30,151 nt of DNA from a virus: IMG/VR virus record IMGVR_UViG_3300008952_000214, positions 1 through 30,151 of that record; one strand, 5' to 3'. The notes beneath the pieces are model-generated. The model was not told the origin of the DNA. It worked only from the letters and a program-made list of their open reading frames with translations, and ran no database searches. A program made the position numbers and the translations under genes. Below, piece after piece: positions 3,101 to 30,033 of this stretch (position 1 is the first letter of the stretch; every line of letters starts with the position of its first letter).

Positions 3101-3739
3101 ACCAGATGAAAAAGGTTGATTATAAGCTCTATTAATATTTATTTTTCTTGGTTGATTTCTATCGTCAGTCCAGAATAATAAATCCTCAAGTAAGTTTATG
3201 TTTAATATTTTATGTGTTTTGGAAAAGTTTAAGAAGTTACCACCAACGAGAACCGAGGTGGTATTACCGTTTATATCTAACATGTATATATAACACCCAG
3301 CGCCTTTGTAAACAAAGTCTGTATTTATAGAACCAGGAGAAACCTCTTCATAATGATCTGGGTTTGCGAAGTTAGAAAGTCTGTTAGCTGAGGTATCAGT
3401 GTAATTTGTTAGCATTATGAATATCCTATTATTCTTGACATCCATAAACTGACCTATTATCTCTAAACCATATAAAGATTGTTCTATTTGAGTCTCAGTT
3501 GGCTTAGTGACTATAGTAGAGTCACTGTTCGCGTAATTCAATTCCGCTTGAACTACATCTGTTTTTATATCTGATACTTGTATATTACTAAGAACATTCT
3601 CTAATGAACCAACATCATCTCCTTCAGATTTACTTACATTAACATTTTCAGCATCTCTATATTCTCCATTAGGTAATATCCTAGCGTCTAAGTCTTTATT
3701 CATCTTAGACTTAAGAAAGGTATTTTTAACTTCTGGCAT
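161..3739 (-). CDS. Tail stabilisation protein, P22 gp10-like (crAss-like 'muzzle/Tstab' type)
   Basis: A 1192-residue virion protein expected to close the end of the short tail, where P22 gp10-like proteins bind the tail tube. Near the N-terminus (about residues 14-52) it carries MNKDLDARILPNGEYRDA followed by NVNVSKSEGDDVGSLENV, the hallmark opening of this family in crAss-like and uncultured marine phages. The long middle is beta-rich and full of Asn, Gly and Thr. The last 130 or so residues, after a PPVAQ segment, look like a separate Ig-like or jelly-roll beta domain. The start codon overlaps the stop of the preceding connector gene by one base (TAATG), implying translational coupling. 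Family assignment rests on the N-terminal motif, the length and the position directly after the P22 gp4-like gene. Confidence 0.8.
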   Translation of the reverse strand: MPEVKNTFLKSKMNKDLDARILPNGEYRDAENVNVSKSEGDDVGSLENVLSNIQVSDIKTDVVQAELNYANSDSTIVTKPTETQIEQSLYGLEIIGQFMDVKNNRIFIMLTNYTDTSANRLSNFANPDHYEEVSPGSINTDFVYKGAGCYIYMLDINGNTTSVLVGGNFLNFSKTHKILNINLLEDLLFWTDDRNQPRKININRAYNQPFSSGDPYYYNEDHISVAKFAPVLPISLIEEVASNIWESTMQSVTQEHLPIHLIDTISVGKVVGDIGVELKRSFSLGTNDSMINVGDKVIIEDNSGNEYDHEIIAVVGANQFNITPAFTVDVEVGWTVKVQRPNPFYDTNYIGDENVLKDKFTRFSYRFKYDDNEYSLFAPFTQEVFIPKQFGYFVDDDEEKAGKSGIVSFMENLVDKVKFNIRLPYVGTNIEDILKVKEIQIVSKASNEQAVKVIEDIPTSDLTNTQDYIYEYNSIKPYKTLPENDLTRVHDKVPIRAKCQEVTSNRVLYGNFVDKHTSPDFLDYQLKINRKNILNVGPTPSDPTDVFSQVRREYPTHTLKQNRSYTVGVVLVDRYGRSSNVILSKQNVTVNSDKVSTIYSGYTNFGTDDVIDWPGNVLEIQFNNPISNSGPEGYPGLYSETNPLGWYSYKIVVKQQEQEYYNVYLPGILAGEITWTTTPLGLNGGRDDYDVIAGETATNQPMYINSTKTSLISLFGDNINKIPRNLNDVGATDIDFGSSVELFNRVNPNSWDSEIVDASGALVSGLPYNTQSSVNNTSDTIDFIKPFKQLGKWTTTKGNAYPEQNNVLGVPPFADPWYPFTGGIDASGGSAEDIIFKDPLYKSNENPFIASISTQFKTGVNPKQSQNAGNYYYVNTGENRLGDTTLGVYETNPVESLLELFWETSTAGLIENDGYTSGTNQYEALNTLIDNETGNNGPFSLSELNFDLKESDPIGTFVTDIFEMLQSDGNPCNDTGNTMTILSVLDGNGNERKFDFELKQNPNGSSDTLWQIKSKKEFVFLSDANTRERYDFTLEGTANGQTNTFGFKGQLSNEPPVAQVNWPDVRYNGGSINPPTFPAGDAFEIAGRWGGGSGSVVIVEANDFFNGSIANSENFKQLVYSCDFRTNIENPPGFFVNYSPNFSLTTSSNGSVTLNLLNIGFFEAEANFTLKISDANGNGDFIEKDFNVSVKN

Positions 3740-28645: not shown

Positions 28646-28814
28646 AATTATTTATTTTTGTAATATTGTTAGTTTTTTGCGCATTTTACGCACTTTTCTA
28701 GTCAAAAGGCGGTACGCTAATGTGTTTATCTTGATATTTGATTTAATTTTATTCCCCATGGGAATATTATTCACATGTAAAAGTAGTAATTTACAAATAA
28801 TTTTCCCTAAAACT

Positions 28815-28869
28815 GTGACATTAGCCCATTACTCCCCTATATAATACCCTAATGTCATAGTATAATACC
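28815..28869. promoter_or_regulatory. Inverted repeat with paired TATAATACC direct repeats (operator/promoter-like)
   Basis: TGACATTAG (28816-28824) and CTAATGTCA (28849-28857) form a perfect 9-base inverted repeat across a 24-base spacer. TATAATACC occurs at 28840-28848 and again at 28861-28869, exactly 21 bases apart, or two helical turns. On the plus strand GTGACA (28815-28820) lies 19 bases before the first TATAAT, which resembles a -35/-10 pair with a long spacer. The combination suggests a repressor or activator site over a promoter. Confidence 0.45.
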
Positions 28870-29149: not shown

Positions 29150-29209
29150 GTGTATAGCATTCCCCCCTCCGACAATCTCAATACGACCGTTGTTAGATAA
29201 TATATATGA
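29150..29209 (+). promoter_or_regulatory. Promoter-like cassette A with T7-class core
   Basis: The cassette is GTGTATAGCAT, 11 bases, ACAATCT, one base, AATACGAC (29180-29187), five bases, then TTAGATAATATATATGA (29193-29209). AATACGAC is identical to positions -16 to -9 of the T7 promoter, and TAG falls at the positions equivalent to -2 to +1, so the predicted first base is G29196. Fifty bases of A/T leader follow before the 72-residue gene. The second copy near 30.0 kb keeps the spacing from ACAATCT onward base for base. Confidence 0.6.
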
Positions 29210-29247: not shown

Positions 29248-29466
29248 ATGAAAAAGAATGTAGTAGTAAAGAAGAGATTCATTATCTCTAAAGGAATGTT
29301 AGGTAAAGGTTTAACAGTGAAGTTCACTAATAAGAAGGGTGAAACGTATGAATACAATCACGATGAAGTATTCGCAGCGAATCAAGAGAAGTTACTGAGT
29401 ATGGCGTGCTTTAATGAGTATGGTAACTACACTAACACTAACAAATTGCCAAACTGGGCTAAGTAA
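29248..29466 (+). CDS. Small protein of unknown function, plus-strand region
   Basis: A 72-residue basic protein: MKKNVVVKKRFIISKGML, then a strand-rich GLTVKFTNKKGETYEYN and HDEVFAANQEKLLSMACFNE, ending NTNKLPNWAK. The layout of two short strands with a turn followed by a helix suggests a small alpha/beta fold; no family is recognised. It is preceded by promoter-like cassette A and an A/T leader without a Shine-Dalgarno sequence, and followed by a strong RNA stem-loop ten bases past its stop. Small early proteins that act on the host are often of this kind, but that is only an analogy. Confidence 0.6.
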   Translation: MKKNVVVKKRFIISKGMLGKGLTVKFTNKKGETYEYNHDEVFAANQEKLLSMACFNEYGNYTNTNKLPNWAK

Positions 29467-29475
29467 GCTCAGTAA

Positions 29476-29529
29476 GCTGTCACCACACCTCGCTCTGTAA
29501 CTGGAGCGGGGATTTGTGGGTAGGACAGC
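29476..29529 (+). ncRNA. Long structured stem-loop after the 72-residue gene
   Basis: Three stacked helices can be drawn: GCTGTC (29476-29481) with GACAGC (29524-29529), CCACA (29483-29487) with TGTGG (29515-29519), and CCTCGCTC (29488-29495) with GAGCGGGG (29504-29511), closing an eight-base loop. Only small bulges (A, ATT and GTAG) interrupt about 19 pairs. No T-run follows, so it is not a standard terminator. Its last two bases are also the first two of the tRNA-like element, so the two foldings compete at that junction. Confidence 0.5.
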
Positions 29530-29616
29530 CAGTGTAAGCTAAGTAAGTATCGCGTTATGCTTAGTGAACTAAGGAGCTCGGTAGCCGAGGTGTGAGTTCG
29601 AATCTCACCACTGGTT
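29528..29616 (+). tRNA. tRNA-like element, class II layout, degenerate (tRNA-Leu-like)
   Basis: The acceptor stem GCCAGTG pairs with CACTGGT over seven base pairs (the first is G-U). The T arm is perfect: GTGAG, loop TTCGAAT, CTCAC. A long variable arm, CTCGG-TAG-CCGAG, makes it class II, and the segment CGCG..TATGCTTAGTG aligns by eye with a Leu (TAG) anticodon region. However, a normal five-pair anticodon stem cannot be drawn, the D loop lacks the GG pair (AAGTAAGT instead), and no CCA is encoded. A seven-pair CTAAGTA/TGCTTAG hairpin can form in place of the D and anticodon arms. It may be a decayed tRNA gene or a genuine tRNA-like RNA. Confidence 0.45.
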
Positions 29617-29637
29617 CTAAACCATAAAATATAAATT

Positions 29638-29775
29638 ATGTCACCAAAAGAATATAATGCACTATTAAAAGAATTAGCACAGCCATGTGTAATTTTACCG
29701 ATCATATTATCAATGGAATTACTTGTTGACATATCTCTTGATCTGTATGAGTATGATTTAAAACACCCGAATTAA
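29638..29775 (+). CDS. Small protein of unknown function (45 residues)
   Basis: A short frame, MSPKEYNALLKELAQPCVIL at the start, continuing PIILSMELLVDISLDLYEYD. It is mostly hydrophobic and could be helical, with a central stretch (17-33) that might touch a membrane. The leader AAATATAAATT before the ATG matches the leaders of neighbouring genes. It begins 22 bases after the tRNA-like element. No family is recognised; its reality rests on start context and strand consistency, so confidence is moderate. Confidence 0.5.
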   Translation: MSPKEYNALLKELAQPCVILPIILSMELLVDISLDLYEYDLKHPN

Positions 29776-29957: not shown

Positions 29958-30033
29958 GTGTATAGCATGTGTGTATAGCATCACTCGTCCCCGCAACAAT
30001 CTGAATACGACTACATTTAGATAATATATATGA
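29958..30033 (+). promoter_or_regulatory. Promoter-like cassette B with T7-class core
   Basis: Second copy of the cassette. GTGTATAGCAT is present twice here (29958-29968 and 29971-29981), then 14 bases, ACAATCT, one base, AATACGAC (30004-30011), five bases, and TTAGATAATATATATGA (30017-30033). The five bases after AATACGAC differ from copy A (TACAT against CGTTG), as does the single base before it, while all flanking blocks are identical. The predicted first base is G30020. It leads into the gene starting at 30067. Confidence 0.6.

Follow-up and report, generated by a model that had tools for sequence, protein, structure and literature searches.

An anticodon-armless tRNA-like element downstream of a small phage gene: a probable extended member of a covarying minihelix family and candidate cut site

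Introduction

Mimicry of tRNA has already been described at the 3′ ends of RNA viruses, in tmRNA and in organelles. In mitochondrial tRNA punctuation and in the t-elements of plant mitochondria, tRNA-like folds lie between genes and ends are set by tRNA-processing enzymes; nematode and mite mitochondria have armless tRNAs, very short folds in which linkers replace arms (for a review, PMC7609411). The TYMV-type 3′ structures mimic the acceptor and T arm and can be cleaved by RNase P (PMC12710915, PMC11143913). For bacterial RNase P a minihelix of acceptor and T stem is enough, the remaining tRNA being dispensable for binding (PMC11221534), and its P RNA base-pairs with the RCC that follows the acceptor (PMC12710915). 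The enzyme is known to act on several phage RNAs (PMC11143913), and phi80-induced RNA, C4 RNA and the T4 tRNA precursors are all cut by the host enzyme. For tRNase Z, C74 is reportedly the strongest single inhibitor (PMC3161902). Phages also carry intergenic hammerhead ribozymes, which cleave themselves (PMC3088659).

Here we describe a locus in a marine phage record of IMG/VR, whose whole stretch of 30,151 bases was analysed (hereafter the window). Its tRNA-like element has the 7-bp acceptor, the 5-bp T arm with a TTCGAAT loop and the variable-arm hairpin of a canonical type II (Leu/Ser) tRNA as modelled by RF00005, but lacks the anticodon arm, has its D arm replaced, encodes no CCA and is not called by ARAGORN. 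It shares with minimal RNase P model substrates an acceptor/T-stem helix, a 5′ leader and a 3′ extension. Punctuation and t-elements are organellar, whereas the present elements belong to phage DNA, go down to 41 nt and are predicted to be cleaved. The nematode and mite tRNAs decode and keep the anticodon arm, precisely the one that the window element misses. The tRNA-like domain of tmRNA likewise combines acceptor and T arm without an anticodon stem, but the window has neither a tag reading frame nor a tmRNA architecture. The TYMV-type structures occupy the 3′ ends of RNA genomes, with a CCA end and a pseudoknotted acceptor, whereas this element is internal to the sequence of a DNA phage. Hammerheads occupy the same position in four related loci, and differ from the window element in that they have a ribozyme core. 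In size, the predicted stem-loop that precedes the element would suit a T7-type RNase III processing hairpin. The literature that we searched yielded no armless tRNA-like element of a phage and no description of a covarying family of intergenic minihelices.

A sequence-only reading of the window had noticed a long stem-loop fused to a tRNA-like cloverleaf without a normal anticodon arm, and had offered two interpretations, a decaying tRNA-Leu gene or a dedicated tRNA-like RNA such as a processing signal. Our data favour the dedicated RNA or processing signal over the decaying gene, and the tRNA-Leu identity found no support.

Results

Genomic context of the element

The terminase, portal and further virion proteins of the window match phage families, and the phage encodes GroEL and GroES. 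Isolates related by terminase are the Flavobacterium elemo phages and Cellulophaga phages, and one uncultured phage from Manatee Spring has a terminase 63% identical to that of the window phage. The element lies at the far end of the window, past the minus-strand late genes and amid small plus-strand genes; all features of this region given below are on the plus strand. It is preceded by a gene of 72 amino acids (29248-29466), for whose product Pfam and PHROG searches gave no match, and followed by a 45-aa ORF (29638-29775) ahead of which an A-rich leader, CTAAACCATAAAATATAAATT, was read in the sequence.

A promoter-like motif, TACGA-N9-GATAAT, stands 5′ of the 72-aa gene (29182-29201) and again at 30006-30025. 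At exactly this 9-nt gap it occurs 197 times on the gene strand of 78 related loci and not once on the opposite strand. The motif resembles the T7 promoter TAATACGACT; a search for a T7-like RNA polymerase in 18 related records gave no match, the control being equally silent. The window also holds, at 28812-28865, a copy of a recurring, structured-looking element (TGACA..GCC..TTACT..TAATGTCA) that is present in many of the related loci (L095-L172), with 73 gene-strand and 21 opposite-strand matches in the 78 loci, often directly 3′ of the 72-aa gene or of a hammerhead.

A stable stem-loop overlapping a tRNA-like fold

The best fold of the segment 29474-29531 has an energy of -29.6 kcal/mol and joins 29476-29529 by 19 to 20 pairs, in agreement with the approximately 19 that had been read there. 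None of 200 dinucleotide shuffles folded as well (mean -16.6, sd 2.6), giving a z-score of -5.0. The tRNA-like part follows at 29528-29616. Its seven-pair acceptor is formed by GCCAGTG (29528-29534) and CACTGGT (29609-29615), the first pair being G-U. Between the two strands, the fold places a hairpin at 29538-29565 that replaces the D and anticodon arms, a linker AAGGAG (29571-29576), a 5-bp hairpin CTCGG-TAG-CCGAG in the position of a variable arm (29577-29589, pair probabilities 0.97-1.0) and a 5-bp T arm, GTGAG-TTCGAAT-CTCAC (29592-29608). The acceptor is followed by TCTA (29616-29619), which corresponds to N73-C74-T75-A76, and there is no U-run 3′ of the element. The seven-pair acceptor, perfect T arm and five-pair variable arm of the sequence-only reading were all located, and the anticodon arm is indeed missing, being unmatched in the RF00005 alignment, with a different hairpin folding in its place. 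The same reading had found no D-loop GG: the D stem is broken and its arm replaced, but a GG does occur in the AAGGAG linker, where relatives keep it, and could possibly be the equivalent of G18 and G19 of the D loop.

The stem-loop and the acceptor have G29528 and C29529 in common, as had been pointed out. Keeping both structures in one fold costs the stem-loop its two outer pairs and raises the ensemble energy by about 4 kcal/mol relative to the free fold. In the isolated 89-nt RNA the acceptor is highly probable, and the T arm forms only about a third of the time under this energy model.

ARAGORN, one of the programs that the sequence-only reading had proposed, reported no tRNA gene and no tmRNA in the window. 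The Rfam tRNA model RF00005 matched exactly 29528-29616 with 29.4 bits, 0.4 above its gathering threshold of 29 (E 0.02 over the window, 0.0008 over the last 1.15 kb). A T arm combined with an upstream 7-bp acceptor occurs once in the window and three times in total across 300 shuffled windows, and the window by itself is therefore moderate evidence. The hammerhead core pattern (CUGANGA, stem II, GAAA), which was found in related loci, is absent from the window. Elsewhere, the tRNA array of a 160-kb phage contains an 89-nt type II tRNA-like gene (L002, 7885-7973, minus strand), missed by ARAGORN, with the acceptor and T arm of the window element; we leave this as coincidence or distant kinship.

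The position downstream of the 72-aa gene in related phages

No match to the region was returned by BLAST from 50,697 phage records, and a direct DNA search of 50 TerL relatives gave only pieces of 15-23 nt that were judged not to be homologues. Relatives were reached through the 72-aa gene, which has counterparts of 44-81% identity in 78 viral loci; the 241-aa neighbour yielded none. In these 78 loci a T-arm motif (a 5-bp stem closing TTCGANY) was found 43 times on the gene strand and never on the opposite strand, compared with 1 to 6 times, both strands summed, in ten shuffles of the loci. Many of the matches consist of a tRNA top with a short linker and nothing more, as in L169 (GGTAGT-AATGGTTTAA-GTGAG-TTCGATT-CTCAC-C-ACTACC-A-CTAAAA).

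Besides the window, 13 loci (L097, L107, L109, L110, L113, L116-L121, L123 and L124) have a tRNA-like element directly 3′ of the 72-aa gene, and four more (L099, L106, L122 and L154) have one somewhat further downstream. The stop codon of the gene overlaps the acceptor in L107 and others. The window element occupies this same slot: it is intergenic, on the gene strand and directly 3′ of the 72-aa gene. In four other loci (L126, L133, L135 and L165, each at 3222), the slot holds the core of a hammerhead ribozyme, with stem I closing it and the layout CTGANGA, stem II, GAAA, stem III and GTC. Further hammerheads lie outside the slot in L106 (1755 and 2047), L112 (4043), L116 (1854) and L166 (4482). 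All are on the gene strand, and their stem I covaries (GTAATA/TATTAC, GTTTAA/TTAAAC, GTTATA/TATAAC). Rfam at its threshold did not report the hammerheads in the loci tested, and a relaxed Rfam search of L126, L133, L140 and L165 returned only that of L133 (27 bits, E 0.007, below the gathering score), the others being recognised by manual reading of the core and stems. The exchange of the tRNA-like element for a self-cleaving ribozyme in one slot points to cutting.

An intact tRNA at this position in relatives, which the sequence-only reading had named as a sign of simple decay, was sought in the 78 loci with ARAGORN and not found. The program called tRNAs in only 4 of the 78, all tRNA-Arg(TCT) and all more than 1.3 kb past the 72-aa gene, so that a tRNA decaying in place is unsupported. 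Six loci (L098, L101, L103, L106, L122 and L154) have a conserved block, GTCCAGTTAGTT..ACTGGTAAATCAAATATGAA, directly 3′ of the 72-aa gene, which is probably a structured RNA.

A minimal, covarying family

The minimal form of the element measures 41 nt and consists of a 6-bp acceptor, an AANGGTT linker and a 5-bp T arm. From seven such elements RNAalifold recovered acceptor and T arm unaided, with 9 of the 11 pairs compensated and none broken. IMG/VR was then searched with a pattern blind to the acceptor, AANGGTTN7GTTCGATTC, and the figures that follow hold among the matches listed. Of 82 distinct elements among those matches, 62 had 6 bp or more of perfectly paired acceptor in register, compared with 1.7% when 5′ and 3′ halves were swapped between elements. 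For 60 elements, selected by linker and T loop rather than by a perfect acceptor, 90.6% of pair cells were paired (52.9% shuffled, 40-50% slid) and the covariation score was 0.96 (0.24 shuffled, at most 0.22 slid); in these elements the one-base-offset acceptor register fits at least as well as the zero-offset one, a mild selection that the slid control removes incompletely. Compensatory changes were seen in 10 of their 11 pairs, and at least five pair types at nearly every acceptor position; kinship among the sequences inflates such covariation counts, and the slid control preserves this relatedness. The compensatory changes that the sequence-only reading had suggested looking for are thus found in the related minimal elements; the search turned up no close homologue of the extended window version, with its own hairpin and stem-loop, in which to look for them.

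The 3′ end of the elements has a signature of its own. Among the matches listed, 86 of 94 elements have C74 and 73 have A76, and position 75 is C in 2, T in 61, A in 22 and G in 9; the neighbouring true tRNA-Arg genes are likewise followed by CTA or CAA. The elements avoid ORFs (73 of the 94 listed lie outside, compared with 30% at random), are preceded by a same-strand ORF in 80 of 89 listed cases, and are flanked by same-strand ORFs on both sides in 59 listed cases and followed by an opposite-strand ORF in 14 of the 94 listed. Their carriers are unlike in genes, encoding an integrase and a primase (L366), RecE (L357), anti-restriction and Cas4-like proteins (L377) or DNA methyltransferases (L354 and L368). 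Three consecutive elements, each between genes, occur in L372, one copy following an intrinsic terminator, and in L364 (800-2100) six tandem minihelices follow one another at intervals of approximately 150-200 nt, in non-coding DNA with many repeats of the AACATAAC type.

In the loci tested, neither Rfam nor ARAGORN reports the minimal elements. Three MAGs reached via the 72-aa gene gave one match to the minimal model in total, and a similar element was also read in L295, the locus of the relative of the 72-aa gene in the MAG that gave this match. A model search of the isolates phi38:1, phi19:3, phi18:3, Calle_1, Gundel_1 and elemo gave no strong full-length minimal element, so that no laboratory phage carrying one was found among these terminase-related isolates; two T-arm matches read in phi38:1 both lie inside annotated tRNA genes. 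In this Cellulophaga phage ARAGORN also calls a tmRNA (L340, 1500-1859, minus strand) with the tag AQIEANMEAVNAILNLEVAVGV. In MW202828 (L335, 520-700), two tRNA-like elements were seen that ARAGORN does not call, the second of which has a D arm and no anticodon arm, and is followed by a terminator-like hairpin and a T-run.

Place of the window element in the family

Compared with the minimal form, the window element is extended: its GG linker stands between two additional hairpins, one of 28 nt on the 5′ side and the variable-arm hairpin on the 3′ side. It has the acceptor and 5-bp T arm of the family, a TTCGAAT loop that fits TTCGANY, and a TCTA end with the conserved C74, a position 75 other than C, and A76. 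The minimal covariance model R1, which has no room for extra hairpins, matched only the T arm of the window (17.5 bits, E 0.64, not significant), as it did in L118, L159 and L163, and the case for membership is therefore made by its slot, its anatomy and its TCTA end. Among the relatives, a hairpin just 5′ of the T arm also occurs in L110, L118, L120, L161, L163 and L168, and the element at 3988 of L172 has an acceptor-to-T distance of 65, against 64 in the window.

Discussion

A candidate cut site between messages

Both the structure and the family have good support, and we consider cutting to be their best explanation, a proposed role to which we give slightly better than even confidence. 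With the same degree of belief, we regard the window segment as an extended member of an anticodon-armless tRNA-like family, found at phage gene 3′ ends or between genes, that would serve as a cut site. The element would act in cis, the host RNase P, perhaps with RNase Z, separating the messages on either side, a proposal that we hold to be a little more probable than its negation.

We infer that the region is transcribed as a single unit: one RNA starting from the motif near 29182 would run through the 72-aa gene, stem-loop and tRNA-like element into two small downstream ORFs. Host RNase P would cut it just 5′ of the acceptor (29527/29528). Such a cut is proposed because bacterial RNase P recognises its substrates by a coaxial acceptor/T-arm helix, and the prevalence of C74 in the listed elements (86 of 94) fits the pairing of RCC with P RNA. 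The 72-aa message would then end in the stem-loop minus its two outer pairs, a 3′-terminal structure that should shield it from 3′ exonucleases. A second cut, perhaps made by RNase Z behind base 73 (29616/29617), would free the next message with a CUAAA leader. This cut is possible because CCA, the usual block to RNase Z, is absent, and uncertain because C74 is reportedly so strong an inhibitor by itself. The RNase BN of E. coli is reported to be blocked by the two C residues only in combination. In sister phages, the hammerheads of the same slot probably punctuate the transcript as well.

Alternative explanations

Plain punctuation between genes leaves the tandem array of L364 and the post-terminator copy of L372 unexplained, which suggests that in some phages it may be the element's own RNA, or the spacer RNAs, that matter. 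Both cases would be accounted for if the element were released as a stable small RNA acting in trans, either as a decoy or sponge for tRNA enzymes (RNase P or Z, the CCA-adding enzyme, EF-Tu or a tRNA-targeting defence) or as an aminoacylated minihelix, a reading that we consider rather unlikely, if less so than the other rivals. Alanyl-tRNA synthetase accepts acceptor/T minihelices as substrates, and such minihelices have been used with EF-Tu (PMC11221534), and L167 contains a G3-U70-like pair (GGGCAT/ATGTCC). However, the freely varying acceptor, with its many pair types at nearly every position, argues against a single aminoacylation identity; the elements do not encode CCA (2 of 94 among the matches listed have C75), and without an anticodon the element could not be a decoy for anticodon nucleases. 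The hammerhead exchange within one slot, moreover, suits cutting better than it does a product acting in trans. The conserved parts also count against a 3′-end structure for stability or termination, blocking exonucleases or pausing the polymerase, in which the tRNA likeness would be incidental: for a plain hairpin the near-constant TTCGATT loop, the GG linker, the acceptor/T stack of 11-12 bp and C74, all of them tRNA features, would be superfluous, and the window element lacks a 3′ U-run. Even with the very stable stem-loop (z -5.0), the copies beside terminators and the opposite-strand ORF downstream in 14 of the 94 listed elements, such a structure seems improbable to us.

Equally improbable is a decaying tRNA gene that has lost its anticodon arm, the remaining interpretation of the sequence-only reading. 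It would agree with the 29.4 bits still scored by RF00005 and with the odd 89-nt gene in the tRNA array of another phage, which shares the acceptor and T arm and scores 24 bits. On the other hand, the armless relatives show compensatory changes in the acceptor, the 78 loci have no intact tRNA in the slot, and the acceptor and T stem of the window are still perfect, with the N73-C-(not C)-A end retained; for the family, decay already fails as an explanation. For the window alone one could also invoke a chance resemblance without function, given that its R1 score is not significant and that three equally good combinations of T arm and acceptor arose in 300 shuffled windows, but we find this very improbable for an element that shares its slot with those of 13 relatives, on the right strand, with a variable-arm hairpin and a TCTA end. 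We also rejected an attP reading, in which the element would be a tRNA integration site, since the 5′ acceptor strand belongs to the element and covaries.

Conclusions

Neither tRNA mimicry nor tRNA punctuation is new, and the armless phage form is a variant of them and not a decayed tRNA; within DNA-phage genomes, covarying anticodon-armless tRNA tops were found neither in Rfam nor in the literature searched. In its widest form, our interpretation is that a class of approximately 41-nt anticodon-less minihelices, spread across unlike phages, recruits the tRNA-processing enzymes of the host to cut polycistronic RNA, that it is exchangeable with hammerheads in one lineage, and that the window has a larger form of it, joined to a 3′-protecting stem-loop; we give this interpretation an even chance. 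If the elements are cut sites, phages would have arrived anew at the tRNA punctuation of mitochondria, using a tRNA of almost the smallest size possible, and phage gene regulation would come to include host RNase P. The elements also offer compact natural minihelix substrates of RNase P, and they serve as a warning that the tRNA 'remnants' of phages may be functional.
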